Shown: in pieces, positions 4,147 to 49,560 of the stretch
Position numbering within the stretch: the first letter of the stretch is position 1
How the letters are laid out: each line of letters starts with the position of its first letter
Assembly (NCBI GenBank): GCA_021234155.1
Contig: JAJEKV010000008.1
Location: 8,396,445-8,460,444 of the forward strand
Origin: Isoetes taiwanensis
Taxonomy: Eukaryota > Streptophyta > Lycopodiopsida > Isoetales > Isoetaceae
Length of the DNA stretch: 64,000 nucleotides
Direction: 5' to 3'
Made by a program: the position numbers and the translations under genes
The notes under the pieces: model-generated
The model's input: only the letters and a program-made list of their open reading frames with translations
The model's database searches: none
Told to the model about the DNA's origin: nothing

Positions 4147-4852
4147 GTCAATTTTGAAAATGAATCTTTGATGGTTTCCTTTCAGGTTTAATGATGATCG
4201 AGGACGATCATGTTTTGAGAAGGGAAGGAATTGATATGGTGCTCGGGGGAGTGGCCTTGCATGTAACAATATTTATTGATATGATCAAGTAAGAAAGTCA
4301 TCCAGTATGTCTAAGCCTTGCTATTATCAAAGAGAGCTAAAAATAAACCTTGACCTTTATTTAGAAGCAAAAAGGCAAAAAAAAAAAAGTGTTACCTATA
4401 AATAGAAGGACAACTTTGAGACGTGATATCTCCGCGACCACAACTCAGAAATCGGCGATACTTACCTTGTTGGGAAGCTCTTGAAGTCTAGTTTCCAGAT
4501 TGGGCTTGTTGTCTATAGACTCCTTACGGTTTGAAGGTTATGACCAGAAAGGTGCATAGGGGTCTAAGCTGACTGCACAACTAAATCTGCTTCTTTCTAT
4601 GTTGATCATGTGCCTAGCCTTACCTTCTAGTATCTTCTCTTGTACCTCACTTGATAATATCATTAGAAGGAGTTCATGTAACACCAGTGGTTGGTGGCTG
4701 GAAAGAGTTTGTTCGTATACAGTCTTGCGGAGCAGCTTGACTTGGTGATATCTCTTCTAGTTGGTCCGGTTGGGTGGTAAAACGAGTACTCTATGTTGTT
4801 TTACTTTCTAATAAGTTGATGAGTTTGCGGGAAGAACGAGCATTAAGTAACA
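4147..4852 (+). mobile_element. Small LTR element: 3' internal piece and LTR
   Basis: Fossil. At 4147 the sequence returns from LINE to the internal region of the small LTR element (same as 2010-2130), passes the purine tract and enters an LTR at 4262-4852 of 591 bp. With the LTR at 2131-2724 this forms an LTR - antisense LINE - internal tail - LTR arrangement, which looks like one chimeric unit. Confidence 0.8.
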
Positions 4853-5898
4853 AACCCGTCGAGGCATCGCGTGTCAAAAGCTTTTTGCGAAATCCACGAA
4901 AACAACAAGATCAGGTCTTGTCGGCGATTCCTGCTATCCTCAATCAATGTGCGCAGAGTGACGATATGATCAATGGTGGAATGCCTGGGCCAAAAACCTG
5001 CCTGTGTGAGGGCTCGCACATCTGCCTCCTCTGCCCATATTGTCAGCCGCTGCTCAAGGATGCCAGCCAACAGTTTTGCAAAGAGAGAGTTGACCATAAG
5101 AGTACGATAGTTGGCCGGGCATTGAGGGTCCCCTGCCTTGTATATGGGCACAACTCTACTAGTGGTCCACTGTGGAGGGAAGCCTTCTTGCAATGCTTTG
5201 TTGAACAACGCCGTGAGAACAGGCACCAGTGGAGGCCCAGCCCATTTCAGAACTTCCGCCTGCATACCATCTAAATCTGTTGCCTTCCCATTAGCCAGAT
5301 GTTGTAGGCCCATGATGACATCCCCCTCTGTGATGACCAGAGCCATGCCTATCTGTGGAGGGACTGGTGTCCGCCCCGGCCGGTCGTAAAGGCTGTGCAA
5401 ATCTTGTACCCATTGCTCAGAGGGTGATGTTCCCGGTGGGTCATGCGGTCTTGCTCAAGATCCTTCTCGTAATGTCTTGGGGTGCCGATTCGAAGACCAA
5501 ACATCATTCTTGGCGATGCTCATGAGGTAGCTGGCTTTCTTGTTCTTGAGGAAGGAGCGGTATTGACTAATGGCCTATGGGCGGGAGGTGGGATCAGTGA
5601 CTTGCCGGAGTGTGCGCTTGAGCTCCCGACACTCATCATCGAACCACCTGTTGCGGGGGAAGGTGGTAGTGCCCGAGGTTCGCTGTGAGCGGCCTCTCCC
5701 AAAGCATCTCTCGGCCACCGCCGAGCGGCCAGTCGAGTCCCGGCATTCTTTGTTGAAGTGTGGGGAGTTGCAGCGGTCCTGCCAGGTCATGCTCAAGCAG
5801 CTGGGCATAGGTTCCTGTATGGCGGTAGTCCAGGTGCAGTTGGGGCACCTGGGGTGTTGAGGCAGTAGATGCACGGGGAGCTTGCCAATGGAGATGCA
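4853..5898 (-). mobile_element. LINE fragment, second copy
   Basis: Minus-strand LINE fragment of the same family as 2725-4146. It starts at the same LTR junction and contains the reverse transcriptase half (NGKATDLDGMQAE, GFWPRHSTIDHIV and KAFDT motifs) followed by part of the linker (RWFDDECRELKR). It is broken by frameshifts. It ends at 5898, where the orientation of LINE sequence flips abruptly at the start of the right palindrome arm. Confidence 0.8.
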
Positions 5899-6149
5899 CG
5901 TACTATTATGATCAGCTCTCTCTTTGCAAAACTGTTGGCTGGCATCCTTGAGCAGCGGCTGACAATATGGGCAGAGGAGGCAGATGTGCGAGCCCTCACA
6001 CAGGCAGGTTTTCGGCCCAGGCATTCCACCATTGATCATATCGTCACTCTGTGCACATTGATTGAGGATAGCAGGAATCGCCGACAAAACCTGTACTGTT
6101 GTTTCGTGGATTTCACAAAAGCTTTTGACACAGTGCCCCGGGACAGGTT
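5899..6149 (+). mobile_element. LINE fragment, plus-strand piece inside the palindrome arm
   Basis: Encodes the reverse-transcriptase stretch with SLFAKLLAGILEQRL, GFRPRHSTIDHIV and FVDFTKAFDTVPRDRF, in frame over the whole piece. It ends at the same LINE/LTR junction as the minus-strand copies, here at 6149/6150. Confidence 0.8.
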
Positions 6150-7615
6150 TGTTACGAATGCTCTGTTCTTCCTGCAAACTCATCAACTTATTAGAAAGTA
6201 AAACAACATAGAGTACTCGTTTTACCACCCAACCGGCCAACTAGAAGAGATATCACCAAGTCAAGCTGCTCCGCAAGACTGTATACGAACAAACTCTTTC
6301 CAGCCACCAACCACTGGTGTTACATGAACTCCTTCTAATGATATGATCAAGCAAGGAACAAGAGAAGATACTAGAAGGTAAGGCTAGGCACATCATCAAC
6401 ATAGAAAGAAGCAGATTTAGTTGTGCAGTCAGCTTAGACCCCTATGCACCTTTCTGGGCATAACTTTTAAACCGTAAGGACTCTATAGACAACCAAGCCC
6501 AATCTGGAAACTAGACTTCAAGGCTTCCAACAAGGTTAGTATCGCCGATTTCTGAGTTGTGGTCGCGGAGATATCACGTCTCAAAGTTGACCTTCTATTT
6601 ATAGGTAATACCTTCTTTTTTTTTTGCCTTTTTGCTTATAAATAAAGGTCAAGGTTTATTTTTAGCTTTCTCTTTGATAATAGCAAGGCTTAGACATACT
6701 GGATCACTTTCTTACTTGATCATATCAATAAATATTGTTACATGCAAGGCCACTCCCCCGAGCACCATATCAATTCCTTCCCTTCTCAAAACATGATCGT
6801 CCTCGATCATCATTAAACCTGAAAGGAAACCATCAAAGATTCATTTTCAAAATTGATCTTCAATCAATTTCTGAAAAGCGTGTTAGTCTTTCCCTTCTTG
6901 GGACCAATCTTGTCCTCCTAGGAATGTTCTTTTTCTGATCCTCCAAGGCAGGATCCGCGCTTGGACAGAAAAATCTCCATATTGATCCATCAAGTAGGCG
7001 TCCCTCACTTGAACAGTCATGGCATTCCCAGTCAAGTTAAACATCATCATTCAACTTGAACAAGAAAGATATTTTTCCCTTCCATTCTCAAGAATAAACT
7101 TATTTCCTCGAGAAGGTCTCAAAAAACTACAAATTGAATATCAACTTAATTTATCTCAACAAAATGTTTACTAACCTCCACCAGAAGCACCAACTTCTGA
7201 TCAATCTCCATTCCAGTTTGCAATCTCCAGCACCAACCAGAAGACCTGCAAATATCAGGAATAACAAGCATTCTATTCACATGGACATGAGCACCAACTC
7301 ATTCCAATCTCTTGGACATGGTATCCGCTCATTCCAATCGCTTGGACCTGGCATACGCTCATTCCAATCTCTTGGTCAAGAGCACCAACTCTTTTCAACC
7401 TTGAGGCACCAACCTCAGCCATAAGGATGCAATAAGAAATATCTAAAGATTCTAATCACAATCCCTAAACATCAATTTCATACAAGACAAGAGGTTAACC
7501 TATTTGCAATTTGCCCCTCTTGGACCTCTTGTGCTGCTTAGCCACTTAAATTTCCAACGCCTTCCATCACCCACAGCTCCGCTGGTAAAGACTGGAACTG
7601 AGCTCTGATACCAAT
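5899..7615. repeat. Right arm of the 1.7-kb inverted repeat
   Basis: Reverse complement of 1258-2979. From left to right it holds a plus-strand LINE reverse-transcriptase piece (5899-6149), a reversed LTR (6150-6742), the reversed internal region, and the primer site (7604-7615) of the small LTR element. Confidence 0.9.
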
Positions 7616-8062
7616 TGTTACGAATGCTCTGTTCTTCCTGCAAACTCATCAACTTATTAGAAAGTAAAACAATACCAACTAGAAGAGATATCACCAAGTC
7701 AAGCTACTCCGCAAGAATGTATACGAACAAACTCTTTCCAACCACCAACCACTGGTGTTACACGAACTCCTTCTAATGATATGATCAAGCAAGGAACAAG
7801 AGAAGATACTAGAAGGTAAAGCTAGGCACATCATCAACATAGAAAGAAGCAGATTTAGTTGTGCAGTTAGCTTAGACCCCTATGCACCTTTCTAGTCATA
7901 ACTTTCAAACCGTAAGGAGTCTATAGACAACCAAGCACAATCTGGAAACTAGACTTCAAGGACTTTCCAATAAGGTAAGTATTGCCAATTTCTGAGTTGT
8001 GGTCGCAGAGATATCACGTCTCAAAGTTGTCCTTCTATTTATATGTAACACCACCTTTTTTT
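6150..8062 (-). mobile_element. Small LTR element, most complete copy: LTR, primer site, internal region, purine tract, LTR
   Basis: Fossil on the minus strand. The 3' LTR lies at 6150-6742, the purine tract near 6752-6762, the internal region at 6743-7600, the tRNA-Met primer site at 7604-7615, and a partial 5' LTR at 7616 to about 8062. This copy shows the true order of parts: the LTR ends CGTAACA immediately before ATTGGTATCAGAGC. No gag or pol is present, so it is non-autonomous. Confidence 0.8.
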
Positions 8063-8483
8063 GAGGCAGTAGATGCACGGGGAGCTTGCCAATGGAGATG
8101 CACGAACAGGGGCTGGTGGTCTGAGTCCACTTTCTCGTCCCGAGTGTCTGTTCCAATGGAAAAATGGGCAACCAGGTGCAGATCCCATTCCTCAACCAGC
8201 AGATAATCCACCACACTGGAGCCGCCCCCTTGGTTCTCCTGTCTACAAGTGCAACAGCTGGAAGATGGCCATTGTGCTAACCCATTACAAATAACCAGGT
8301 CAAAGATACTACCCAGCAACAACAACTGCCTGCCATAGCGCGAAATATGGTTGTCGTCTGACACCTTTGACCAAGCCACCTCTACGGGGTTCAGCTGCAA
8401 GACGTCCTCTTCCAGGGGCTCAAATTTTGGGACCTGCTCGTCTCTTGTGCGTGCATTAAAGTCGCCAAGCAATTTAAAGTCAA
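8063..8483 (-). mobile_element. LINE fragment, endonuclease part
   Basis: Minus-strand piece equal to about 3730-4146. It encodes the C-terminal endonuclease motifs GDFNAR, VVDYLLVEE and DSDHQPLF. It joins LTR-element sequence on both sides and ends at 8483, at the same internal junction as the copy at 4146. Confidence 0.8.
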
Positions 8484-9183
8484 TTTTGAAAATGAATCTT
8501 TGATGGTTTCCTTTCAGGTTTAATGATGATCGAGGACGATCATGTTTTGAGAAGGAAAGGAATTGATATGGTGCTGGGGGAGTGGCCTTGCATGTAACAA
8601 TATTTATTGATATGATCAAGTAAGAAAGTCATCCAGTATGTCTAAGCCTTGCTATTATCAAAGAGAGAGCTAAAAATAAACCTTGACCTTTATTTAGAAG
8701 CAAAAAGGCAAAAAAAAAGGTGTTACCTATAAATAGAAGGACAAATTTGAGACGTGATATCTCCGTGACCACAACTCAGAAATCGGCGATACTTACCTTA
8801 TTGGAAAGCCCTTAAAGTCTAGTTTCCAGATTGGGCTTGGTTGTCTATAGACTCCTTACGGTTTCAAGGTTATGACCAGAAAGGTGCATAGTGGTCTAAG
8901 CTGACTGCACAACTAAATCTGCTTCTTTCTATGTTGATGATGTGCCTAGCCTTACCTTCTAGTATCTTCTCTTGTACCTCACTTGATCATATCATTAGAA
9001 GGAGTTCATGTAACACCAGTGGTTGGTGGCTGGAAAGAGTTTGTTCGTATACAGTCTTGCGGAGCAGCTTGACTTGGTGATATCTCTTCTAGTTGGCCGG
9101 TTGGGTGGTAAAACGAGTACTCTATGTTGTTTTACTTTCTAATAAGTTGATGAGTTTGCAGAAAGAACAGAGCATTCGTAACA
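8484..9183 (+). mobile_element. Small LTR element: 3' internal piece and LTR
   Basis: Fossil. Internal tail and purine tract at 8484-8592, then an LTR at 8593-9183 of 591 bp, starting TGTAACAATA and ending CGTAACA. It repeats the arrangement seen at 4147-4852. Confidence 0.8.
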
Positions 9184-9955
9184 AACCTGTCCTGGGGCAC
9201 TGTGTCAAAAGCTTTTGCGAAATCCACGAAACAACAGTACAGGTTTTGTCGGCGATTCCTGCTATCCTCAATCAATGTGCGCAGAGTGACGATATCATCA
9301 ATAGTGGAATGCCTGGGCCAAAAACCTGCCTGTGTGAGGGCTCGCACATCTGCCTCCTCTGCCCATATTGTCAGTCGCTGCTCAAGGATGCCAGCCAACA
9401 GTTTTGCAAAGAGAGAGTTGACCATAATAGTACGATAGTTGGCCGGGCATTGAGGGTCCCCTGCCTTGTATATGGGCACAACTCTACTAGTGGTCCACTG
9501 TGGAGGGAAGCCTTCTTGCAATGCTTTGTTGAACAACGCCGTGAGAACAGGCACCAGTGGAGGCCCAGCCCATTTCAGAACTTCCGCCTGCATACCATCT
9601 AAATCTGTTGCCTTCCCATTAGCCAGATGTTGTAGGCCCATGATGACATCCCCCTCTGTGATGACCAGAGCCATGCCTATCTGTGGAGGGACTGGTGTCC
9701 GGCCCCCGAGCGGGTCGTAAAGCTGTTGCAAGTACTGTACCCATTGCTCCGAGGTGATGTTCCCTGTGGGCTGTGCAGTCTTGCTCAAGATCCTTCTCCA
9801 GAATGTCTTGGGGTGCCGATCCAGAAGACCAAACATCTGTTGCTGATGCTCTGCGAGGTAGCTGGCTTTCTTGTTCTTGAGGAAGGAGCGGTATTGACTA
9901 ATGGCCTATGGGCGGGAGGTGGGATCAGTGACTTGCCGGAGTGTGCGCTCAAATC
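9184..9955 (-). mobile_element. LINE fragment, reverse transcriptase part
   Basis: Minus-strand LINE piece with the longest clean frame of the set (234 codons, 9132-9836, part of which reads into the LTR). It includes LSKTAQPTGNITSEQW, NGKATDLDGMQAE, KAGDPQCPANYR, RHSTIDDIVTL and FVDFAKAFDTVPQDRF. It ends near 9955, where unrelated gene sequence starts. The RT catalytic YxDD region is again absent. Confidence 0.8.
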
Positions 9956-9992
9956 TACATAACGAGTGTCCAAAAGATAAAGAATTAGTTAC

Positions 9993-11206
9993 CTGGTAAT
10001 AGGGTCAAACGGCACGACGTCAGCAGGTGTGAGGACCTCTGTCGGGTATGTCTTGAAGCTTTTAACCAGAGTTTGAACATGGTCATTTGATCGCATTCTG
10101 TGTGTCAAGTTTGCTGGTGCAGGTTCACAATCAAAAATAGAAATCTTTGTAAACCAATTAACCCCTAAGGGGTAAAACCTTTTGAACTGTTCAAGCTTCT
10201 GAGTGGTTTGCTCTGCCATCTTGCGTTCCTCTTCCGGATTGAACTTCAACTTGACTGGAATGACAGGTGCGTGGGGCCATGTCAATGCTAGTCTAGAGGA
10301 GGCATCCGTAACTGGGGGGGGGGTTTGAGAACTGCTGGGCTGCGGGCTATCGTCAGCAGGTGTCAGATTTCTAAGGTTAATTTTGAAAGGAGGGAGTTTT
10401 TTTGGAATAAATCCACCAGACATAGTGCTATCTGGGGCCTTCAATGCAAGAGGAAGAGTAGGGTTAATAATACCGGAGGGGTTTATCGTGGATTGTGGTT
10501 CTTCAACAACATTTTTTGGTGCTGACGTCTCTCCCAAAGTAGCAATAGGCTTCACACTCTTTTTCTTGGCCACGGCTCTTAGCCAATTGGTGTCCATCAC
10601 AGAGGGCATTTTCTCGTCCCGAACTGCTTTCAAAGCACAGCTCGGAGGCTTCTTGTCTGTAGACAAACCATTTCTGCATGCCGAGAACCCTACCAATATG
10701 TCTCTGTTTCCCTTTATTCCTGACAAAGAGAGAGATTCATAGGATGGCAACAACCAGCCATAACCCTTAGCTGATGTGGGGACGTTTTTCCCTGTGGCTG
10801 GCTTGTTCATTTTGCTGGCTGTCATCAAAGACGGATCATAATTGCGCCATTTCAAAATGTACTCCAGGAACTGCAATGCTTGTGTGTCCTCAATGCTGCA
10901 TATGATAGCATCTTGCACATTGTTCTTCGTGCCTTCCCACATTGCCACCACTATACCAACTTGTTCAACGTCCTCAGGTTTCTTTCCAGTCCGCAGGAAC
11001 AGGCACAGGTCCTTTCTGCGATCACCTTTAATGTGCGGTATGGCTTGTGCAATCTCAATACACCATTTCCTTTCATTGGAAGGGGTTATAACAGTTCTGA
11101 CAGTTTTTACCTGCATTCTTGCTCTTTTACCAGCATTTTAACTATTTTTTACCTGCAGATTTGCAGAATTGCTCCTACTCAAAGCTTCACGTAACAACAA
11201 TTTCAT
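9993..11206 (-). CDS. Unknown plant gene, 5' part only, two predicted exons
   Basis: Exon 2 (9993-11110) is open for about 372 codons, long for this AT-rich region, and begins after an acceptor (GAATGCAG). A short exon 1 (11153-11206) starting MKLLLREALS would join it in frame through a 42-nt intron, unusually short for a plant. Exon 2 holds a compact part (CIEIAQAIPHIKGDRRKDLC, QALQFLEYILKW), then a Pro/Ser/Lys-rich linker (QTPPPVTD over a run of G), then NWFTKISIFDC and NDHVQTLVKSFKTYP. The last patch faintly recalls ParB-like 'HVxxLvxSF' motifs, which is only an impression. The frame meets a possible donor (CCAG/GTAACT) 40 bp before the LINE fragment, so downstream exons were probably lost to the LTR/LINE block. 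The family is not recognised. Confidence 0.5.
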
Positions 11207-36164: not shown

Positions 36165-37774
36165 TGTGACGTCCCCTACTCCTTATACGATGCCCGCATC
36201 GTATTCGAAGGAGGAGCATTCCCCCTGGCAGCTGCCTGACAGGGGCCATCCACCTGACTCCACTCCCATGGGGCAGAGCCAGCAAGGGAAGAGTGGATGT
36301 GTCATTCATCCGTCTTCCATCGGATCGACCTATCTGCGGAAGCGTGAACAAACAAACGTGAGCACAACTACAATATACAAATACAATCGCCATAGAGACA
36401 GTAACATCACAGAGATAACAATACCTTCATAGCAACCATACAATGGGGAGATCCTACCCAGGGCTCGGACTCAAGGGGGATGACTGACGGCTAGGCCTCC
36501 AGAGTTCATTGCAGACAGAATTCATGGCAATGGATTTGGCTGGCATAGAACATGGCTTAGGGTAGTCCACTCCATCCGCCCCTCCCGGTGCACACTTTGC
36601 GAGTAGGTCTGAAAAAAGTGTTGGGACTTGGCCGTGGCTTCCGGGTGAATAGCCAGAGGGGCTACTACTGCTGGGTTGCATCTCCCCAACCCCGATGAGG
36701 TAGGAAGAGAGTTGCCTCTCCTCCAGAGGTATCCATGCTCATCGCAGGCGGCTAGAGGGCCACTGCCCTTATTCGACTTGAACTCACTGGAAGGTCATAT
36801 TCACCACCCCACGAGTGTCGAGCTCATGCCTTGCCCACACGCAGTGACAAGCCATTAAGCCTAGCCCGCAGAGACCCCGATAGGGCTTTACTACCCGGAG
36901 GGGTCAGTCCAGCGATGAGACAAGTTCCTCCTTATCCAACCGGCCTGGTCCCTTCACCCACAAACCGGTGGGCTCCTCGCAAGACGGGCGCGCAATTATG
37001 TGGGAACTAAGGTGCTATGCTAGGAGCATCTACTACACAAATTTTTAAGTCTCTACCCCCTTCCCACAACAAGGAGATCATAGAGTGGAATACATGCAAT
37101 ATCACGTAACGTAAATTGAGAATCATATCAATCTATCTACTTAACATCCAATGTTAGGTTCATTCGTTAGAGTCTCGGATCTAGGGATCTACAAGGCTGC
37201 CGAGAGATGATCTAACATACTAAACCAAAGATATTGCCACGCCCAAAAGACGGTTTTGCACAAATGTAACAACTAGATACCTGCTCCTTGGCTTGCTCCT
37301 GATCCTCGGAAGGCGTCCATGCTCCTGATCTTGCCGAAGACGACTGCTACTTAGCAACCTGTTGTGCAAATCCGACTTTTCGGAGCCTGGCAATGCGATT
37401 TCGAGTCTTACCTTGGCCGAATTGGCCCAGGAAAACCCTAAATGCGAGAGAGGAAAGGAAGCTCTAGAGAACCCTAATTGGCAAAATGGAAGAGAGCTAG
37501 GGTCTAGGGTTTTAGCCCTTATATAGACCCTATCTAAGTTAGGGCATCCACATGGGCAAATGGCTTTAAGCCATTTGGAAATGGATGAACAAGGAACCTT
37601 TTGTTGTGTATGTTTAATTACATACCCAACATCCAAGGTGGCCCCCTAGGTGCAACCTTTAGCTCCTAGGTGCAACGTTATCCTGCTCTCAAGTACATGT
37701 CACTTGTGACATGTACGTGTGACGTGGCAGTATAATATACGTATTGGGGGCGTATATTATGCTGGAACGTCACA
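36165..37774 (-). repeat. 3' LTR of the chromovirus
   Basis: 1.61-kb LTR starting TGTGACGTCC in plus orientation and ending GGAACGTCACA. It is nearly identical to 47964-49557. Both carry the same internal landmarks, including GCATCGTATTCGAAGGAGG near the start. Confidence 0.9.
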
Positions 37775-38613: not shown

Positions 38614-39000
38614 CTAAACCCAAATCGACATGCCTGAGCCGATTTCTTGGTTGCTGATGTCGACTACTTCGGTGACGAGCCGACCCTTGCATTGCTCCAT
38701 AAACTCGGGGTACTGTTTCTTAAGATCTGACTCAAGTACCCATGTAGCGTCTTCCACTGGTAAGTATTTCCACTTCACAAGGTATTGGAGGAATTTTGAC
38801 CTTCTTGTCTTCTTATAAGATCTATCAAGAAGGACTTCCGGGACGATTTCAATATGCTCGTCCGTCATTTCTAAAAACTCATTTGTCTCCAATACTTCCT
38901 CGGGGTTTGGGGTGTGCCTCTTTAGCAAACTTACGTGGAAAACTTTATGGATCTTAAGATGTGCTGGCAATTCCAACTTGTAGGATTGGTTACCTACTCT
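38614..39000 (-). other. Chromodomain at the integrase C-terminus
   Basis: The minus strand encodes the SH3-like integrase tail (HVSLLKRHTPNPEEV) followed by a chromodomain: PEVLLDRSYKKTRR, YLVKWKYLPVEDATWV and PEFMEQ. Known chromodomains of this shape bind methylated lysines on histone H3 tails and steer integration into silent chromatin. Part of a fossil element. Confidence 0.85.
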
Positions 39001-39009
39001 CTTCTCTTC

Positions 39010-39955
39010 TCCTCAAGGGTCCAGCCCATCTTGGAGCAAGCTTCTTGCAATTGCCGATGCGGAGCTTGGCCCGCTTGACTTTGATCTTCAACCACACTTT
39101 GTCTCCCACTTCAAATTCTCTTACCGCCCTATGCTTGTTTCCACGATGCTTTTCTCGGCCTTCTTCTTGCCGCAAGGAGATATCCTCTCACTTCCTCCAC
39201 TAAGTCTTGCATTTCCGAAAGCATCTCGGCTGGAGACTTCCACCTTGGACACGGGGTTGTGCCAAGTATCCGGGGTAAGACACATAATTCGTAATTAATC
39301 ATAAAAGGACTCATCTGCGATGATTCCCGCTTGGTGCCGTTGTAGGCAAATTCTACTAGGTGGATGAAATCATCCCACTTGGATTGCTTGTTCCATACAT
39401 AGCTTCTTAACATATCTTCGATGATCCCGTTTGTCCTCTCCGTCCCACCATCCGCTTGGGGGTGATATGCCGCGCTCATCGAAAAGCTTCGTCCCTGGAT
39501 GGTGGTGAATAGGTCCCCGCCAAAAGGCACTCATAAACTTGAGTCTCTATCCGAGATTATCTCCCTTGGCATGCCATGGAGCCTAAAAATCTCCTTAACA
39601 AATAGGTTGGTCGTGGTCTAATGTCAGATCTGTTGTCCTCCGCGGCACAAAGTGTGCCATCTTTGACAACTTATCTACTACCACCATCAAGGCATCTTTG
39701 CCCCTTTTTGCATTTTTGGGAGTCCTGTAATAAAATCCATACTTATCACCTCCCACTTAGCGTTTGGCACGGCAATGGTTCCAAGGCCCCGGATCCTGAG
39801 CTGTTCCGCCTTTGTCTCGGCCGGCATATCCGCACTCTCTAATATATCTTGCTATTTCCTTCTTCATGCCGGGCCAATAATAACTGCTTCTAATCTTGAA
39901 GTATGTCTTCATGAACCCCGTGATGCCCTCGCTATGGGACTATTGTGTGTATCAT
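39010..39955 (-). other. Integrase region of the chromovirus
   Basis: The minus strand shows the integrase core with FSMSAAYHPQADGGTERTNG, LRSYVWNKQSKWDDF and VEFAYNGTKRESSQMSPF, characteristic of Ty3/gypsy integrases. Fossil. Confidence 0.85.
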
Positions 39956-40735
39956 TCAAAATAAGCTTTCTAACTTATGAAGATTTTGGTACACACAATT
40001 TGTTTTTATAATATAGCAAGTTTCCTTCCTTCTTGTAGTGCTAACATCTCCCTTTCCTTGTCGGGTCCCCGCCTCTTTGGAAAGGCTCGCCCAAACTTCC
40101 TTGAAGTCGAGGTCCGTCGGCAATGTTTCCTCAATCTTCTTGCCAAACTCACTTACGAGTGTTGATATGGCGTTACAATGAATTCTGGTTGCCAATGGCT
40201 TCCTGGAAAGGGCATCCGCAACCACATTGAGCTTTCCTGGCTTATAACTTATCTCAAAGTCATATTCTTCCAAGAATTCCATCCATCTCCTTTGCCTCAA
40301 ATTGAGGAGCGGCTGCGTAAATATGTATTGGAGGCTTTGATGATCCGTGTCTAACTGGAATTTTCTTCCCAATAGATAATGCCTCCAAATTCTTAAAGCC
40401 CTTACTATAGCCAGGAGCTCCTGATCATGCGTTGGGTAGCGCTGTTCGGCGTCGTTCAACTTCTTGGAATCATAGGCCACTACTCTTTCCTCCTGCATGA
40501 GGACTGCGCCTGTTGCTATCCTGCTAGCATCTGTTGCTACAAGCTTATCTTTGGTCGGATCTGGCAAGATCAATACTGGCGCCGTCGTCAAAGCTTCCTT
40601 TAGTGTCTCAAATGCTTTCTGGGCCTTGTTTTGCCAATGGGCTGCCCAATCTTTTATCTTCCCACCTTTTGTGAGATCCGTTAATGGCGCTGCTACCTTG
40701 GCAAAATTCTTGACAAATCTTCTATAATAGCCTCT
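39956..40735 (-). other. RNase H region of the chromovirus
   Basis: Minus-strand motifs TDASRIATGAVLMQ, YDSKKLNDAEQRYPTHDQEL, FQLDTDHQSLQYIF and GKLNVVADALSRK are the Ty3/gypsy RNase H signature. It lies between reverse transcriptase and integrase, as in all Metaviridae. Fossil. Confidence 0.9.
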
Positions 40736-41530
40736 TTAGCCCTAGGAAGCTCCCCGACTTCATGCGTATTCTTTGGTGCCGGCCAGCCGATCACGCCTTC
40801 TATCTTCGCAGGTGCATTGGAAATGCCTTCCTGGCGTGATCACGCGCCCCAAGTACTCCACTCTTTCCGTTGCGAAGTGGCACTTTGATAACTTCGCAAA
40901 GAGTTGATGCCTTCTTAACTTTTCAAGCACCTTCCTCAAGTGTTGGGCGTGCTCCTCTACAGACTTGCTGTACACCAAGATATCGTCGAAGAAGACTATG
41001 ATGAAGGAATCTAGAAATTCGCGAAAGACGTCGTTCATTAACCTCATGAATGTTGCTGGTGCATTAGACAATCCAAAGGGCATAACTGTGGAACTCATAG
41101 TGCCCATATCTTGTCCCCAACGCCGCCTTATGAATGTCTTCCTCCTTGATCCTAATCACGGTGATATCCCGACCGAGATCTATTTTGGAGAAGATCTTTG
41201 CTCCCCGCAGAATCGATCCATTAAGTCATCCTGACCTAGGCAAGGCATACTTATTTTTGATGGTGTGCTTATTTAACCATGCGGTAATCAATGCACATCC
41301 TAAGGCTCCCATCCTTCTTCTTCACAAAGAGAATAGGGGCTCGACGGGGAGACACTAGGTCTTATGAACCCTAGGTCTAGCAATTCTTGCAATCGCTTTT
41401 TAACTCTCATCAACTCCTGGGTTGACATCCTATAAGGTGCCTTGCTTGTAGGCTTCGGCCCCTGTTCAAGTGCTATTTCACACTCGACTCCTCTATAGGG
41501 CGGAAGTCGCTTAATCTCATCAGGGAACAA
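40736..41530 (-). other. Reverse transcriptase region of the chromovirus
   Basis: The minus strand encodes [58 protein letters not shown] and IIVFFDDILVYSKS with the catalytic DD. This is clearly Ty3/gypsy. Fossil. Confidence 0.9.
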
Positions 41531-41699
41531 GTCGTGGAAATTCCTCGATCAACTTTGCTATTGGCCCGGGAAGCTTGCTAGATTCTTTGATCTCTTTATT
41601 TCTCTCCTGGCTCCTGATCTTGGAGCTCAAGCTTAAGGAGATAGGCCACCTGCTGCTTTCTTATGCACTTAAGCAATTTTTCACTACTCATGCATTGCA

Positions 41700-42010
41700 T
41701 GATTGGGGTTACTTCTTTACCGCGATTTCGATGACCTTGCCCTCTCGAGTTGTTAAGGTCACCTTACGCTTCCCACAATCGATGATTGCTCCCCGCCGTC
41801 CAAGATATTCCATTCCAATAATGAGATCATACTTGCCTATATTCATGACTTCCGCTCCCAATGCAACATTAACACCGCAAGTCTACATTGAAGTTTATTC
41901 TCTTCCCCGGCCAGATGCCTAATTGCTCCATTGGCTAACACCACCGGCCTCGGGCTTGGACTTTAACGGCTTTAACTTCAACATGCTTACCATCCTAGGG
42001 GATGCAAAAT
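41700..42010 (-). other. Protease/linker region of the chromovirus
   Basis: The minus strand reads KYDLIIGMEYLGRRGAIIDC and KVTLTTREGKV, the region just after the aspartic protease in gypsy polyproteins. The catalytic triad itself was not confidently seen. Fossil. Confidence 0.6.
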
Positions 42011-42199: not shown

Positions 42200-43280
42200 C
42201 CGCCAATGCCGCATTCATAATCGGGGGGCAATTGTTGGTCCTATGCCCCTGGCTGGAAGCATCTCAAAACACAACCGCTTCTCTATACATTCCTCGCTTC
42301 TTCTCCTTGGGAATGGATTGCGAAAATTGCCTCACCGCTTGGGAGTAGTTAGACTTGGCTCCTTGGTCCTTGAAGCTTACTGTTTCTTTTCACCTCGCTT
42401 GCCACCACTTGTGTTGCCTTGCTTCCCATAATTTGAGTTGTACTTTGCGTCTTGCTAGCTCTTGGGCTTGCCGCCCTTGGGCTATAGCCTCCCGTGCTCT
42501 TCCCTTATCCCGGAAATATTGCTGCCTTGATGCCTCGCTCTTGTGGACTGTTCCTTGCAAACTTATGGCCTTTGCTTACGCCTCGACCACGGACTTGGGT
42601 TTATTGCCCTTACGAGCTTGCGGATCTCATCGTTCAAGCCTTCAATATATCCTTCCACCGCATGCTTTTCACTCAGCTTTGGCACATAAAGCCTTAGTCT
42701 CATGAATTCCTCCGTGTATTTCTCGACTGATTTGTTGCCCTCATTGCGACCTATATAGAACTGCGCATCATGTTGCACTTATGTTCTCTTGGTACATAAT
42801 GATGTTTGAATGCCTTGGCGAACTTTTCGAATTTGCAATCGTCCTGCTTTCGCCCATGTGCTTTGGCATACCCCTTCCACCAAATCCTGGCTGCACCCTT
42901 GAGGTTTGCTGTTGCTACCCTGCCTTTGTCTTTATCTTTCATGCCATAGGCGTTGCCGTACTCACTCATCTCATCCAGCCACGCCTCTGCTTCCATTCCG
43001 GATCTGTTTCCCCTAAAACTGCTCCTAACTTCGGCTTTCCACACATTACTAAGGGCGGAGTCAACTTTCTTACGTAATCGGTCCATGATCCGTCCCTCGT
43101 CACGGTTTGGATCCCGCCGGCGACCTCGTGCCTCTTCTTCCTGCTCTTCTGATGCCGAGTCTGTATCCGAGCTGGAGTTCGAGGATCCCGAACTAGGAGA
43201 TCTTCTCCTTCTGCTTCTCTTCCTTCGTTGCCGCTGTTCGACCCGGTGGCGTTTCCTCCGCAAGGGGCACATTCTGTCCC
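42200..43280 (-). other. Gag region of the chromovirus
   Basis: The minus strand encodes a retrotransposon gag domain: EAEAWLDEMSEYGNAYGM, LKGAARIWWKGYAKAHG, FAKAFKHHYVPREHK, with EEFMRLRLYVPKLSEKHAVE further on and a possible CCHC knuckle near 42220-42260. A Glu/Arg/Ser-rich segment precedes it. Fossil. Confidence 0.8.
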
Positions 43281-43633
43281 CGTCCTCCTATTGCTGCTTT
43301 GCCCACCTGCTAGCAATGCCCTTATGTCGTGGATGTCGGATCTGATTTGGGATAGCTCCTCCTCCTAAGTGTTACCGCCCGGTGCGGGTGCAAATTCCTT
43401 GGTCGAAGCGCCTTGGCGGGTGCGCTTCTTGTTCTTTTACTTTGTGTTCATCAAGGTTTCTAGGTACTCTAGCTGCATGCACATTAGAGTACATTCTGAT
43501 CATTAGTTCGTGTTTTGTGTGTTACGTTGTTTTACTTGTTTATACAATTTGAGGGAGCAATTATATACAAAAAGAGATATATATTATATTCATATATATA
43601 TACTAAATCTTTTACATGCAATTTAATAAACTT

Positions 43634-44296
43634 TTACTCTTCAAACTTCTTGAGGTAGTCAGGGTGGTCCTCCAAAAATTTCTTCACTTGGGTCGTACCT
43701 AATGACCCTGTTAAGTTCCTGAGAATATTTGTTGCCGTCCCTCCTTGGAGTACTGCCTCCATGTCTGCAATTCTCCTATCCGATGTATACGCAGCTGTCA
43801 CTGCCAATCTGCCCTGCCGCCTATAAGGGATTGCAAAGTCGAAGATGGTCAATGCAATCGCTCTCTTGATCAGGACAACATGGTCGATGTTTGGAGGTAA
43901 TCGTGCATGGTGTCCAAACCCTGAGAGGGCGATAAGCATAAAGACCCCTTCTTCACCTCTTGGGCTAAATTGGCGGTGAATAACCGCTATTCTTCCGTCC
44001 GGCCCAAAGAAGAACGGCGGAGGTAGTATCGGCGCCTTATCATGCCCCCTCGTTTTCTTCGACGAGGAGGAAGTTGCCACCAGCCTTCCCGCGAAGTCAT
44101 CCACTGGTATCTCCTCTAGCTCTCTGAAGTCTTGGTGCACCAGCCTCCTTAGGTTGATACTGCCTCCATGCTGCTTCAGGATGGGTGTTGGCGAGCTCGG
44201 TAATAATGCTGATGTGGACTTGCCTTTGATGCCCATTTGTTCCTGAATTGCCATGAACTCCTCCTCCGAGGGCAATTCCCTTTCGGCCATCATCAC
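43634..44296 (-). CDS. Extra open frame of the chromovirus, 220 codons, unknown
   Basis: Open frame upstream of gag on the same strand, starting MMMAERELPSEEEFMAIQEQ. The middle part has HRQFSPRGEEGVFMLIALSG and the C-terminus reads FLEDHPDYLKKFEE. It has no match to families I know. It is probably an additional element protein or the remains of a longer frame with its upstream neighbour. No signal peptide or membrane span was seen. Confidence 0.45.
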   Translation of the reverse strand: MMMAERELPSEEEFMAIQEQMGIKGKSTSALLPSSPTPILKQHGGSINLRRLVHQDFRELEEIPVDDFAGRLVATSSSSKKTRGHDKAPILPPPFFFGPDGRIAVIHRQFSPRGEEGVFMLIALSGFGHHARLPPNIDHVVLIKRAIALTIFDFAIPYRRQGRLAVTAAYTSDRRIADMEAVLQGGTATNILRNLTGSLGTTQVKKFLEDHPDYLKKFEE

Positions 44297-44744
44297 GCCC
44301 GATGCCCGCGTAAGCTTCTATATCGATGATGTCTCACGGGTGAAGGTCCCGGCTTCTCTTATCCGATAGGGAAGTCCCGAAGCTCGATCGATGAAGTCGC
44401 CGAGATCCGCCTTGCCGCCGAGAAGGTGCAAAATCTCATCCACCCTAAGGCCTCTCGTCCGCGCATCGGAAGATTCTTGATGTCGTGAAGGGTTAGATAT
44501 GCCTCGCCGCTATGAACACCGGGCCAAGCTTGTAATGCCCCTGCCCGAAAGTGGTGGGGCTCTTCTTGTTGGTCGCAGTCCCTCTTGAAGTTTTGGATCT
44601 CTTGCTCCGCTTTGCAGCCTCTCTGTTCTAGATCCGTGTCTTCCGGGTCTGATTAAGTATTCATCCTCCTCCTCTTCTTCTTGCTCGGTACTCAAGTCGC
44701 ATCCGTTCCTCCTCTCTTTGCTGCCATGGCTATGGGTTCAACTT

Positions 44745-45257
44745 CTAAAGGTCGCTGACCGAGGGTTCCCCTATCCGGGTTTGACCCCTAAGAGATAGAA
44801 AGATGGCTACAAATGGCGTATAGGAGAAGTACCTCCTCCTATTGGACGAGATGGACATGTAGTTGGGAAGGCGGACCGCTTTATTCTCTAAGTACTTATC
44901 TACATTTGGGATATCTTGCAGGGCTGACTTGAGGGCAGTGTTAGGTGCAAAATACCCTACACAAGGTGGGAGTTCTACCAAAAAGGGTCCTATCTTGGCA
45001 TGGAACTCAGACATGATGTTCTGGTAGAAGGGAGTGGCATTGATGGTAGCCTCAATGTCAAGTTCTCTTCGGAAGACACTGAAGACGGCTTCGATGTCAG
45101 CCTCAGCCACATGAGCTGTGGCGCTGTACCATCGCTTGAATGAAGAAGTGGCCATGAGCACTGAGGAGCTGGGGATGACAGACAGATGCAGAAGCGCCCT
45201 AAGGATCAGGGAAATCGGCTTGGAGCAGAGAGCGAGGTTGGAAGGTGCAAATGACAC
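44745..45257 (-). CDS. Extra open frame of the chromovirus, 170 codons, unknown
   Basis: Open frame on the element's coding strand between the H3-like frame and the 220-codon frame. A likely internal start gives MATSSFKRWYSATAHVAEAD. Other landmarks are DIEAVFSVFRRELDIEAT and PNYMSISSNRRRYFSYTPF. I do not recognise it. It is not histone-like. Confidence 0.4.
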   Translation of the reverse strand: MSFAPSNLALCSKPISLILRALLHLSVIPSSSVLMATSSFKRWYSATAHVAEADIEAVFSVFRRELDIEATINATPFYQNIMSEFHAKIGPFLVELPPCVGYFAPNTALKSALQDIPNVDKYLENKAVRLPNYMSISSNRRRYFSYTPFVAIFLSLRGQTRIGEPSVSDL

Positions 45258-45436
45258 TTGGGTTCCCCTTTATAGGCAAAACCCTAATTCTGGGAAAATT
45301 CTAGGTTTACAATTCTCTGACTTTCTAGGGTCTAGAGGTATGATTTATAGGCTAACTGAGCTTGGAAATGCTCCTAAGGGTCCCTAAGCAATGATTTTGG
45401 TTCGTCTAAGGACAACTTGGATCAATTCGGACGAGA

Positions 45437-45918
45437 CCACTCACACAGTGCGCCAGGGTGGGATCGGTTTGCAAACCGAACTGGTTGGGGCGCACTCTGT
45501 GAGGGGTGGACTGCTGTTTAGGTCACTAATGATGCCAAACTAGAGAAGTAAAGACATAATCCTGGATATCTCATCGAGATAGATAGGATTGAGCCTTTAC
45601 TCGCCTTATTTGGGCAAGTTGTGGTGGAGTTTGGGGTTCGACCACTCACACAGTGCGCCAGGGTGGAATCGGATTCCAAACCAAATGGGTCTGGGCGCAC
45701 TCTGTGAGGGGTGGAACTCCATTTGACTCGGCGTTGGCCAATTTGGACAGATTAGGGGTCAATTCCTACTAACTAGGATGAGCTAGGTCGAATAGGATAC
45801 CTACTTTCTGCATTTAGGCAAGATTTGGCACCAAACCATGCTCAACCACTCACACAGTGCGCCAGGGTGGGATCGGTTTGCAAACCGAATGGGTTGGGGC
45901 GCACTCTGTGAGGGGTGG
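45437..45918. repeat. Three 73-bp fold-back repeats at 205-bp spacing
   Basis: Copies at 45437-45509, 45642-45714 and 45846-45918. Each starts CCACTCACACAGTGCGCC and ends GGCGCACTCTGTGAGGGGTGG or similar, so the ends pair as an imperfect 18-20-bp stem. In the first and third copies the centre holds TCGGTTTGCAAACCGA, itself a perfect palindrome. The starts are 205 and 204 bp apart. They lie just downstream of the H3-like frame on its coding strand. Part of the fossil element. Confidence 0.85.
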
Positions 45919-46057
45919 GATCAAAATGCCTGGTTTGTTCCAAACTTTGCTATTTCTAAATATAGAATTCGGCAATACATCCTATTTAAACTCGATTTGA
46001 CTTATTTATTTATCAAAATTATAGACTTATACAAAAGAAAAGGTCATTTACAATAGT

Positions 46058-47251
46058 TCAAGGGCCCTCCTTCTTAATAAACTGAGCTAGTCTAATATCT
46101 TTGGGCATACAAGTCACTCTCTTAGCGTGTTGAGCACACGCAACAGAGTCTTCGAAATAATGTACGATGTGCTGCTCCGACGCCTCCTGCAGTGCGAGCA
46201 ACATGTCGTCCGTGACCCGTTTGGATGGGTCGAACTCCTGCAAAATCTCCCTCGTTAGACGTGCAAAGGGGGCTCTGGGAATGAGGAAGCCATAGCTCTG
46301 CTGGAAGTGCTTGATTTTTTGGGCCACCCTCGCGAATTTCGAGTCCGCCGGTCTCTTCATTGGCTTCTTCGGAGGGGTTGGCTGTTCCGGTGGGGGCTTT
46401 AACGTGTTCTTCTTCGTTGGCCGACCTCCCTCAATGGTCTTCACTCTGTGTTCTTCATAGTATTTGGAGTATGCTTCGTGCATTTGCATGTACACAGTAT
46501 ACTCCTTTAGCTCCTTCCGGTACTTCAAGTCCCGCTTCAGCGCATAGGACTCCCTCTGCGGCCTTGGTTTCTTGGTGCTGTCGCTGGGGTGCTTCGGCGA
46601 CGGCCATTTAGGATAGGGCGGTGCATTGCCCACAGGGTCTTCATCCTCCGGTATTGGGTTTGGAGGGCCCGAAGTCTCTCCTTGTTCGTGTCCTCCCCCT
46701 CCCTCCTCCGGTTCGGAGTCGGACGAAGATGGGGGCTTCTCAGGATCCGGCTCCTGTATGGTCACTCCCGCGGCCGGTGTCTTCTTTTTCTTCGGTTTCT
46801 CCGCCGGCACTTCCGGGTCCTTACCTTTCTCCGCTCTCACCTTCTCCCGCTCCTCTTTGCGCTTCCTCCTTTCTTCCCTCCTCTGTTCCTTCTCCTCCCT
46901 CCTCTTTCTTCGCTCTTCCTTCTCCTTCCGACGCTCCGCCTTGGATTTCTTCGGCTCGCCTTCTTCTCTTTTCCTCTTCACCTTTTTCGGTTCCGGCTCT
47001 GGTTCCTCATCATCCCCGAAGATCTCCCTCTCCAGCTCTCTCCGCAGTTCCGCCGCCGCGTCCATCTCCCAGTCAAGGTTCTCCGATACCTGTTCCTGAT
47101 CTTCAGGGTTAGGGTTAGGTGGTTCTACAGGTGCCTCCTGTTCTTCGATGTGGGCTTGTCTGCGTCTGGCCTTCTGTCGGACGGCCCGCTCCTGGGCGCT
47201 GACATAACCGGGTGGCATAACCTTGCGTGCGGTCTGTTTCGTCCGTGCCAT
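46058..47251 (-). CDS. Histone H3-like protein encoded inside the chromovirus
   Basis: Uninterrupted 397-codon frame. Residues 1-10 (MARTKQTARK) equal the histone H3 tail including K4 and K9. Residues 312-397 align without gaps to H3 residues 50-135, with about 42 of 86 identical by hand count, including RAPFARL, REILQEF, ALQEASE, FEDSVACAQHAKRVT and MPKDIRLA. This covers all three histone-fold helices and stops at the normal H3 end. Between them lie about 300 residues rich in Glu, Lys, Arg and Pro, with long KEERRKRREEKEQRREERR-type charged helices and proline stretches. Loop 1 has canonical length, unlike many CENH3 proteins. Canonical H3 is only 135 residues after Met removal. The frame sits between primer site and gag on the element's coding strand, so it belongs to the element or was captured by it. 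Confidence 0.93.
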   Translation of the reverse strand: MARTKQTARKVMPPGYVSAQERAVRQKARRRQAHIEEQEAPVEPPNPNPEDQEQVSENLDWEMDAAAELRRELEREIFGDDEEPEPEPKKVKRKREEGEPKKSKAERRKEKEERRKRREEKEQRREERRKRKEEREKVRAEKGKDPEVPAEKPKKKKTPAAGVTIQEPDPEKPPSSSDSEPEEGGGGHEQGETSGPPNPIPEDEDPVGNAPPYPKWPSPKHPSDSTKKPRPQRESYALKRDLKYRKELKEYTVYMQMHEAYSKYYEEHRVKTIEGGRPTKKNTLKPPPEQPTPPKKPMKRPADSKFARVAQKIKHFQQSYGFLIPRAPFARLTREILQEFDPSKRVTDDMLLALQEASEQHIVHYFEDSVACAQHAKRVTCMPKDIRLAQFIKKEGP

Positions 47252-47467
47252 GTTTTTGTTTGTCGGGTTTCGAGCTTTGGCGCCTGAAGATCGTCTTCTT
47301 GGGCGAGCTGTTCTCCGGGAAAGGTGGGGATAAAATGGAAACCCTAATTTTCTATTTATAGGGAGGTGGAATTTAGGGTTGGGACCTGCAATTCATATGG
47401 GGAAAAACAAACTAGGGCATTAGCGAAGGTACGAGGCATTCATCTGGGTTCACCATACTCCAAAACA

Positions 47468-47752
47468 CCCACCACTGTGCGCCTGGGCCAGATTGGATTA
47501 CCAACCGAAAGAGTCTGGGCGCACTCTGTGAGGGGTCGACTGTTTTTGGGGCTATTTTACAATTTACAGGGAGTTTCTTAGTGTTATAACATACAACCCT
47601 ATCTAGAACTAAGGAAATAAGCCAAACTACACCATTAGTTTACTTAATTTGAACATCTAACTAGGTCAACGGAGGTCAACCACTCACACAGTGCGCCTGG
47701 GTGGAATCGGTTTGCGAACCGAATGGTGCTGGGCGCACTCCGTGAGGAGTGG
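47468..47752. repeat. Two further 73-bp fold-back repeats upstream of the H3-like frame
   Basis: Copies at about 47468-47539 and 47680-47752, same fold-back family as 45437-45918, with a start spacing of about 212 bp. The stem ends GTGCGCC and GGCGCACT are kept; the centres have diverged. Together with the downstream set, they bracket the H3-like frame on both sides. Confidence 0.8.
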
Positions 47753-47948
47753 CCTATTTTTGGCAATTTAGGTTGGGAAAGATGCTACACTTCACTAGCA
47801 ACCTATTATGGAGCTAAAATCTACCCATAAATTGGAAATTTTCCCAATTGTTCGAAGCTCTTGCTTGGGTGGCTATACCCCAAGACTCGAATCTACTGTT
47901 AGTCCTAAGGGGAAAAATGGCCAGTGCTCGATCTTGGATGCCAAGATC

Positions 47949-47963
47949 ATGCTCTGATACCAC
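47949..47963 (-). other. Primer binding site of the chromovirus
   Basis: The plus strand reads ATGCTCTGATACCAC next to the LTR; the minus strand therefore reads GTGGTATCAGAGCAT, complementary to the 3' end of initiator tRNA-Met. It fixes the element's orientation. Confidence 0.85.
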
Positions 47964-49557
47964 TGTGACGTCCCCTACTCCTTATACGATGCCCGCATCG
48001 TATTCGAAGGAGGAGCATTCCCCCTGGCAGCTGCCTGACAGGGGCCATCCACCTGACTCCACTCCCATGGGGCAGAGCCAGCAAGGGAAGAGTGGATGTG
48101 TCATTCATCCGTCTTCCATCGGATCGACCTATCTGCGGAAGCGTGAACAAACAAACGTGAGCACAACTACAATATACAAATACAATCACCATAGAGACAG
48201 TAACATCACAGAGATAACAATACCTTCATAGCAACCATACAATGGGGAGATCCTACCCAGGGCTCGGACTCAAGGGGGATGACTGACGGCTAGGCCTCCA
48301 GAGTTCATTGCAGACAGAATTCATGGCAATGGATTTGGCTGGCATAGAACATGGCTTAGGGTAGTCCACTCCATCCGCCCCTCCCGTGCACACTTTGCAG
48401 AGTAGGCTGAAAAGTGTTGGGACTTGGCCGTAGCCTGCCGGGTGAATAGCCAGAGGGGCTACTACTGCTGGGTTGCATCTCCCCAACCCCGATGAGGCAG
48501 GAAGAGAGTTGCCTCTCCTCCAGAGGTATCCATGCTCATCGCAGGCGGCTAGAGGGCCACTGCCCTTATTCGACTTGAACTCACTGGAAGGTCATATTCA
48601 CCACCCCACGAGTGTCGAGCTCATGCCTTGCCCACACGCAGTGACAAGCCATTAAGCCTAGCCCGCAGAGACCCCCGATAGGCTTTACTACCAGAGGGGT
48701 CAGTCCGCGATGAGACAAGTTCCTCCTTATCAACCGGCCTGGTCCCTTCACCCACAGCCAGGTGGGCTCCTGCGCACGGGCCGCAATTATGTGGGAACTA
48801 AGGTGCTATGCTAGGAGCATCTACTACACAGCCTTTAAGTCTCTACCCCCCTTCCCACAACAAGGAGATCATAGAGTGGAATACATGCAATATCACAGAA
48901 CAGAAATTGAGAATCATATCAATCTATCTACTTAACATCCAATGTTAGGTTCATTCGTTAGAGTCTCAGATCTAGGGATCTACAAGGCTGCCAGAGATGA
49001 TCTAACATACTAAACCAGCATATTGCCACGCCCAAAGACGGTTTTGCACAACAGAACAACTAGATACCTGCTCCTTGGCTTGCTCCTGATCCTCGAAAGG
49101 CGTCCATGCTCCTGATCTTGCCGAAGACGACTGCTACTTAGCAACCTGTTGTGCAAATCCGACTTTTCGGAGCCTGGCAATGCGATTTCGAGTCTTACCT
49201 TGGCCGAATTGGCCCAGGAAAACCCTAAATGCGAGAGAGGAAAGGAAGCTCTAGAGAACCCTAATTGGCAAAATGGAAGAGAGCTAGGGTCTAGGGTTTT
49301 AGCCCTTATATAGACCCTATCTAAGTTAGGGCATCCACATGGGCAAATGGCTTTAAGCCATTTGGAAATGGATGAACAAGGAACCTTTTGTTGTGTATGT
49401 TTAATTACATACCCAACATCCAAGGTGGCCCCCTAGGTGCAACCTTTAGCTCCTAGGTGCAACGTTATCCTGCTCTCAAGTACATGTCACTTGTGACATG
49501 TACGTGTGACGTGGCAGTATAATATACGTATTGGGGGCGTATATTATGCTGGAACGT
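47964..49557 (-). repeat. 5' LTR of the chromovirus
   Basis: 1.59-kb LTR matching 36165-37774. Its inner end touches the tRNA primer site. TCTA follows the outer end and also precedes the other LTR, a possible 4-bp target duplication, though the terminal bases here are not fully canonical. Confidence 0.9.
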
Positions 49558-49560
49558 CTA

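Follow-up and report, generated by a model that had tools for sequence, protein, structure and literature searches.

The closest precedent for the gene reported here appears to be H3L, carried by a hAT DNA transposon of the fungus Pyrenophora tritici-repentis, as described in the accessible parts of PMC3538342. Both there and here a divergent, multi-copy H3-like gene has insertions in its tail, adjoins an ORF without assigned function and fully matches neither H3 nor CenH3. However, the fungal element has terminal inverted repeats and 26 closely similar copies that may, in its authors' view, have drifted, whereas the present genes reside in plant LTR retrotransposons, form two families (A and B), have diverged deeply under purifying selection and in some copies encode methionine or isoleucine at residue 9. 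Histones on selfish DNA are also known from viruses. The available portion of PMC9145170 covers bracovirus H4, xenomavirus and phycodnavirus H3 and nudivirus Orf1, several of them with an extended N-terminal part and probably acting on host chromatin. Most of the viral histone singlets in that account show 73-89% identity in the fold, and their carriers are DNA viruses, whereas family A is about half identical, keeps the end of the tail exactly and is borne by a retrotransposon. Extra genes are likewise known from plant elements. VANDAL transposons resemble the present element in combining an extra gene with noncoding repeats, and VANC, their sequence-specific anti-silencing protein, binds tandem repeats located in noncoding parts of transposons (PMC10398659, in part). 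Our comparison with VANC is one of layout. An orchid Ty3/gypsy lineage encodes its own RNA demethylase, according to the accessible text of PMC12786077. The original prediction held that no LTR element with such a gene had been described. This stands for the literature searched (without preprints and most subscription journals), in which we found no LTR retrotransposon described as carrying a histone gene, with the qualification that an H3-like gene is known from the fungal DNA transposon (PMC3538342, in part). Mobile-element-borne H3 is already known; apparently new here are its presence in retrotransposons, the two families, the selection and the natural residue-9 methionine and isoleucine.

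We analysed a window of 64,000 nucleotides from Isoetes taiwanensis (contig JAJEKV010000008.1). Its minus strand carries an element with the layout of a Ty3/gypsy chromovirus, in which 5′ LTR, primer-binding site, H3L, ORF2 pieces, gag, protease, reverse transcriptase, RNase H, integrase, chromodomain and 3′ LTR follow one another (Table 1). The primer-binding site is presumably of the initiator-Met tRNA type, and a purine-rich tract lies immediately upstream of the 3′ LTR on the minus strand. The LTRs are identical at 1570 of 1589 ungapped positions; the 19 mismatches and the 20 small gaps fall mainly in the central part. These differences look like assembly or polishing error, which may also account for the broken pol frames. 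In the window copy the frame of gag is broken as well as that of pol. The outermost bases differ between the two LTRs, leaving the outer ends uncertain by at least one base, and with ends so placed no 5-mer matching as a target-site duplication was seen by eye beside them. The integrase core gave no Pfam match. The chromodomain aligns best to yeast Chd1; as a reader of the H3L tail it is a weak candidate, with one of three cage aromatics present in a by-eye comparison with HP1.

Table 1. Features of the H3L-bearing element, in coordinates of the window.
Feature	Position	Strand	Remarks
5′ LTR	47964..49558	-	limits from LTR-LTR alignment
Primer-binding site TGGTATCAGAGC	47951..47962	-	one base beyond LTR
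74-nt palindromic repeat, copy 1	47679..47752	.	upstream of H3L
74-nt palindromic repeat, copy 2	47465..47538	.	upstream of H3L; weakest, fold z -1.9
TATA-box-like CTATAAATAG	47352..47361	-	about 110 nt upstream of H3L ATG
H3L (family A)	46058..47251	-	H3-like gene, 397 codons
H3L codons 1-10, MARTKQTARK	47222..47251	-	exact H3 N-terminal tail
H3L codons 11-295	46367..47221	-	charged middle; acidic blocks alternate with K/R/E-rich ones
H3L codons 296-397	46061..46366	-	αN helix and H3 histone fold
74-nt palindromic repeat, copy 3	45845..45918	.	between H3L and ORF2
74-nt palindromic repeat, copy 4	45641..45714	.	between H3L and ORF2
74-nt palindromic repeat, copy 5	45436..45509	.	between H3L and ORF2
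ORF2, first piece	44745..45155	-	136 codons; no Pfam match
ORF2, second piece	43634..44296	-	no Pfam match; 50-residue segment common to family B ORF2
gag, two overlapping frames	42566..43287	-	Retrotrans_gag / Ty3_capsid; one piece just over Pfam cut-off, one just under
Protease piece	41712..41882	-	RVP_2
Reverse transcriptase pieces	40763..41548	-	RVT_1 in second piece; frame broken
RNase H	39959..40735	-	RT_RNaseH
Integrase pieces	39132..39939	-	Integrase_H2C2; core motif by eye
Integrase C-terminal chromodomain	38617..39012	-	Chromo, 6.4e-11
3′ LTR	36165..37771	-	LTR-LTR alignment

H3L is followed by an AATAAA after its stop and flanked by the 74-nt repeats, of which four fold much more stably than shuffled sequences (z -4.9 to -6.7) and the fifth (z -1.9) not significantly so. 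In the compared flanks of two divergent copies (L031 and L034) the repeat keeps its arms and has an altered inner part. A second extra gene, ORF2, lies between H3L and gag and has no assigned function; no relatives of its second piece were found in a protein search of 737 candidates, and a single-sequence structure model of that piece (pLDDT 35) was uninformative. Terminal inverted repeats around H3L, as in the fungal hAT, were not found at 42600-48100, where LTRs enclose the gene instead. A survey of that interval returned 12 inverted pairs, and we rejected a nested DNA transposon, as only one pair lies outside the two extra genes, and it spans 20 nt at 80% identity with one arm in the LTR. 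Scans of the window for Rfam families and tRNA genes gave no hits. Elsewhere in the window, 3300-9900 contains several repeated LINE-like fragments with endonuclease- and reverse-transcriptase-like motifs by eye, and 9989-11116 (minus strand) a 375-codon open frame without a Pfam match.

The frame had been proposed as an unbroken one of 397 codons starting MARTKQTARK, and it is so, on the minus strand. Canonical H3 is a 135-residue protein whose tail is joined directly to the fold. H3L departs from it in having 397 residues and in its layout, in which collinear pieces of H3, tail and fold, lie on either side of a charged middle of ~285 residues. Valine replaces serine at residue 10 (H3 numbering). 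The last 86 residues, said to align gaplessly with H3 50-135 at about half identity, do so with 42/86 identical (reference, a provisional Arabidopsis H3.1 sequence), against a maximum of 16 in 1000 shuffles. That the fold scores as a histone is borne out by PF00125 (80.5 bits vs the curated cut-off of 26.4, E 1.5e-22), by solved H3 chains, which match at ~2e-21, and by an AlphaFold model (pLDDT 67) that places four helices (αN, α1, α2 and α3) as in H3 and whose closest solved structures are nucleosomal H3. Moreover, the residues retained from H3 are concentrated at invariant H3 columns (21/29 vs 18/50, p 0.0024). The family A fold keeps D106, C110, H113, R116, D123, L126 and I130, which we take to be dimer residues, and R83, K115 and T118, presumably DNA residues; R63 and R129 are lost. 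Chaperone-site residues 86-90 of host H3 are replaced, and therefore entry of the family A product into nucleosomes is doubtful.

Two further readings of this region were set aside. A single α-helix for the K/R/E stretch goes unsupported beyond composition, being equalled by 213/2000 and 338/2000 shuffles, and antisense ORFs at 46589-47287 are mirror images of the K/R/E-rich stretch rather than genes. A protein search with the region yielded no long H3-like relatives at E ≤ 1e-3 among 30 candidates, while a search with the fold alone returned 21 H3-like proteins among 22 candidates. No relatives were found in two scans of viral contigs.

A six-frame search of the 1.66 Gb host genome, in which 104 candidates were scored, gave at least 114 match rows for the family A frame, the window copy included. 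We compared 30 of these loci, again including the window copy and allowing 1-2 mismatches in motifs. They are largely alike in layout, so that other copies of the element do have the frame, and at the corresponding position: the primer-binding site was found in 23/30, the LTR end in 24/30, repeats upstream in 29/30 and downstream in 29/30, the first piece of ORF2 in 28/30 and a TATA-like box in 25/30, exactly at -110 in 20/30. Reverse transcriptase, RNase H and integrase lie at the expected distance in two of four downstream zones (L036, L037); reverse transcriptase was not found in the other two (L038, L039). Many copies contain stops, and the fold is broken or garbled in several (L008, L014, L015, L017, L018, L023, L024 and L026). 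Host H3 occupies 15 places at 96-98% identity to plant H3 (98% to the same Arabidopsis H3.1 reference), compared with about half in the H3L fold, which disposes of a host H3 gene inserted nearby. Taken together, these results support the predicted chromovirus-borne H3-like protein with a charged insert between tail and fold, the insert measuring ~285 residues and the gene lying between the LTR with primer-binding site and gag.

The proposed comparison of synonymous and non-synonymous change between copies points to purifying selection. Among 11 stop-free copies (at least 385 codons; L008 is included despite a frame-shifted fold patch), pooled pN/pS was 0.18 over 55 pairs, with 0.12 in the fold, 0.21 in the middle and 0.00 in tail codons 1-10, where there was no amino-acid change at a mean dS of 0.38. 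Between the window copy and eight divergent ones, fold pN was 0.06-0.19 at pS of 0.64-0.91, the latter near saturation, and five divergent copies with methionine or isoleucine at residue 9 gave mutual fold pN/pS of 0.15-0.25 (10 pairs). In neutral simulations to 48% fold identity, a mean of 12 stops arose in 397 codons and 0/500 runs remained stop-free, a result that by itself leaves room for earlier divergence in a host gene that was captured afterwards. Given the low pN/pS, the simulations and the retained residues at invariant H3 columns, the sequences show that purifying selection between copies maintains the protein encoded by the family A frame. Since the frame is copied along with the element, we infer that H3L serves the element.

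Family A retains the H3 tail as far as residue 8 or 9, and residue 9 varies between copies. We collected 56 family A N-termini (from 23 of the 30 compared loci, five divergent full frames and 28 short stretches), 50 rows being tallied by script and six by eye. Lysine 4 is present in all 56. Residue 9 is lysine in 36, a count that includes L019, assigned by position only in a frame-shifted tail, isoleucine in 13, methionine in six and threonine in one. All 20 copies lacking K9 are at most 69% identical to the window frame, as are three with lysine, and a stop falls within the first 40 residues in 4/19 of the methionine or isoleucine copies. Three different codons specify the isoleucine, which thus persisted through silent change. 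The residue-9 changes may stem from very few events. The K9M copy L034 lies within the lineage of the window element: its 705 upstream bases are 68% identical to the LTR-end/leader region of the window, the repeats are present, and it matches the window element in ORF2 pieces (71% and 52%), gag (72%), protease (78%) and, farther off, reverse transcriptase pieces (44-49%). The K9I copy L031 has the repeats and ORF2 (81%), but over the next 8.5 kb neither reverse transcriptase nor other pol was found. Neither copy has a recognisable primer-binding site next to it. The window copy itself has lysine at residue 9 and so is without the methionine of an H3K9M-type trap. For isoleucine, an effect at residue 9 is assumed by extension from the K-to-I change at K27. 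H3K9M blocks H3K9 methylation dominantly and traps Clr4, and a G9a structure is available; the accessible part of the same paper makes no mention of K9I (PMC5030085). The methionine of such histones is matched in 6/56 family A copies; theirs is a single change introduced into full-length H3, whereas the methionine and isoleucine here are natural, element-borne and combined with a long middle region (PMC5030085, in part).

A search of the host genome with plant H3 gave at least 150 rows, made up of the 15 host H3 places and at least 135 matches at 71-86%. Among the matches listed in that range, most begin at H3 residue 10-36 and ~50, by eye, lie in open frames of at least 400 codons. From ten copies (L078-L087, of which L084 and L086 are partial; e.g. 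G000:C1064:511677) we defined family B, with ~410 residues, a start MAITK or MANTK, an unrelated N-terminal region of ~310 residues and then the αN helix and a near-host fold of H3. In eight open copies pN/pS was 0.03 in the fold and 0.17 in the N-terminal region. One copy traced over ~12 kb reads H3L-B, ORF2, gag, protease-RT-RNase H and integrase-chromodomain, and is 80% identical to the window element in RNase H (182 residues) and 74% in the chromodomain. Reverse transcriptase, integrase or chromodomain follow at the expected distance in 4/5 other copies, reverse transcriptase not being found in one of five downstream zones (L094). Moreover, the ORF2s of A and B have a common 50-residue segment (18/50 identical, E 1e-6). 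Elements related to that of the window, as judged by the RNase H, chromodomain, ORF2 and downstream pol matches, therefore have an H3 gene at the same position. In four family B loci no core of the 74-nt repeat was found.

Family B falls among H3s, and its position beside host H3 is weakly supported (UFBoot 70). In the fold tree family A joins plant CENH3 (UFBoot 98; 86-97 in four subsets and 93 with more copies), and it matches 10 CENH3-only vs 4 H3-only residues, in both cases with provisional CENH3 reference sequences. We consider this grouping weak because the CENH3 references are provisional and because human CENP-A and yeast Cse4 do not group with plant CENH3 in these trees. An H3 origin of family A was not rejected by the AU test (p 0.27 in both runs), nor was a common origin of A and B (0.24). 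Family A scores higher pairwise to H3 than to CENH3, has no CENH3 loop-1 insertion, loop 1 being of H3 length, and its ARTKQTARK tail is that of H3.

Silencing of plant transposons runs largely through H3K9 methylation. We hypothesise, with a probability of roughly 0.45, that a Ty3/gypsy chromovirus lineage encodes an H3 variant whose product counters this silencing. H3L would be expressed from its own promoter, inferred from the TATA-like box and the palindromic repeats. The family A product would act as a competitor or trap for H3K9 methyltransferases by offering them an ARTKQTAR tail with lysine, methionine or isoleucine at residue 9, while that of family B, which has no K9 trap, would enter nucleosomes as an H3 without a methylatable tail. 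Wherever either product is made or deposited, H3K9 methylation would fall, a form of anti-silencing. The original prediction had offered two roles, entry into nucleosomes or action as a decoy for H3-modifying and H3-reading proteins; the methionine or isoleucine in 19/56 copies speaks for the decoy idea. As the window copy and most of the tails have K9, the majority of copies would be substrates or competitors rather than K-to-M traps. A narrower version, which we advance tentatively, is that a plant retrotransposon lineage evolved natural K9M and K9I histones, the tail acting as a competitor in general, as a K-to-M or K-to-I trap in one branch, and being swapped for another on the H3 of related elements.

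The fold could instead serve as a chromatin tether, pairing with host H4, or host proteins could read the tail, guiding the integration complex or the element's RNA or protein, to centromeres if family A derives from CENH3. Such a role would fit the retained putative dimer and DNA residues and the placement of family A with plant CENH3; yet the CENH3 trees are weak and the AU test leaves an H3 origin, the loop-1 insertion is lacking, R63 and R129 are gone, and H3L is a separate frame distant from an integrase that already has a chromodomain. Although chromoviruses do target chromatin by way of the integrase (PMC12786077, in part), we think tethering rather unlikely. Replacement of H3 on the element or host, altering nucleosome stability or readout with H3K9 methyltransferases unaffected, would suit the near-host fold of family B and its pN/pS of 0.03, as well as the Q and D that family A has at the K56 and K79 positions. 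This reading is unlikely too, as the chaperone site of family A is not conserved and the selection on the tail would be left unexplained. H3L might also have a packaging role and coat or compact the RNA or cDNA of the element, inside virus-like particles or in the pre-integration complex; viral histones may do the same for some DNA viruses. The protein is basic (charge about +11, pI 9.3) and giant-virus histones have been discussed as packaging proteins (PMC9145170, in part), but no second histone was seen in the window frames scanned with Pfam or, for the remainder, by eye, and packaging explains neither the kept ARTKQ tail nor the residue-9 methionine and isoleucine nor the near-host fold of family B; we hold it to be quite improbable. 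Retrotransposons do transduce host genes (PMC7264820, in part) and many copies contain stops, as would be expected of an H3 gene acquired by chance and carried without function. Such a passenger is already disfavoured, and we regard it as highly improbable, by the pN/pS values of 0.18, 0.12 and 0.03 and by neutral simulations that never stayed stop-free.

If the anti-silencing reading is true, these elements carry their own conserved H3, in some copies with a mark-blocking change at residue 9, which would amount to a direct attack on the silencing machinery. They would then provide a natural counterpart of K-to-M histones, and an arms race open to ordinary enzyme and expression assays. Moreover, the finding bears on the origin of histone variants.
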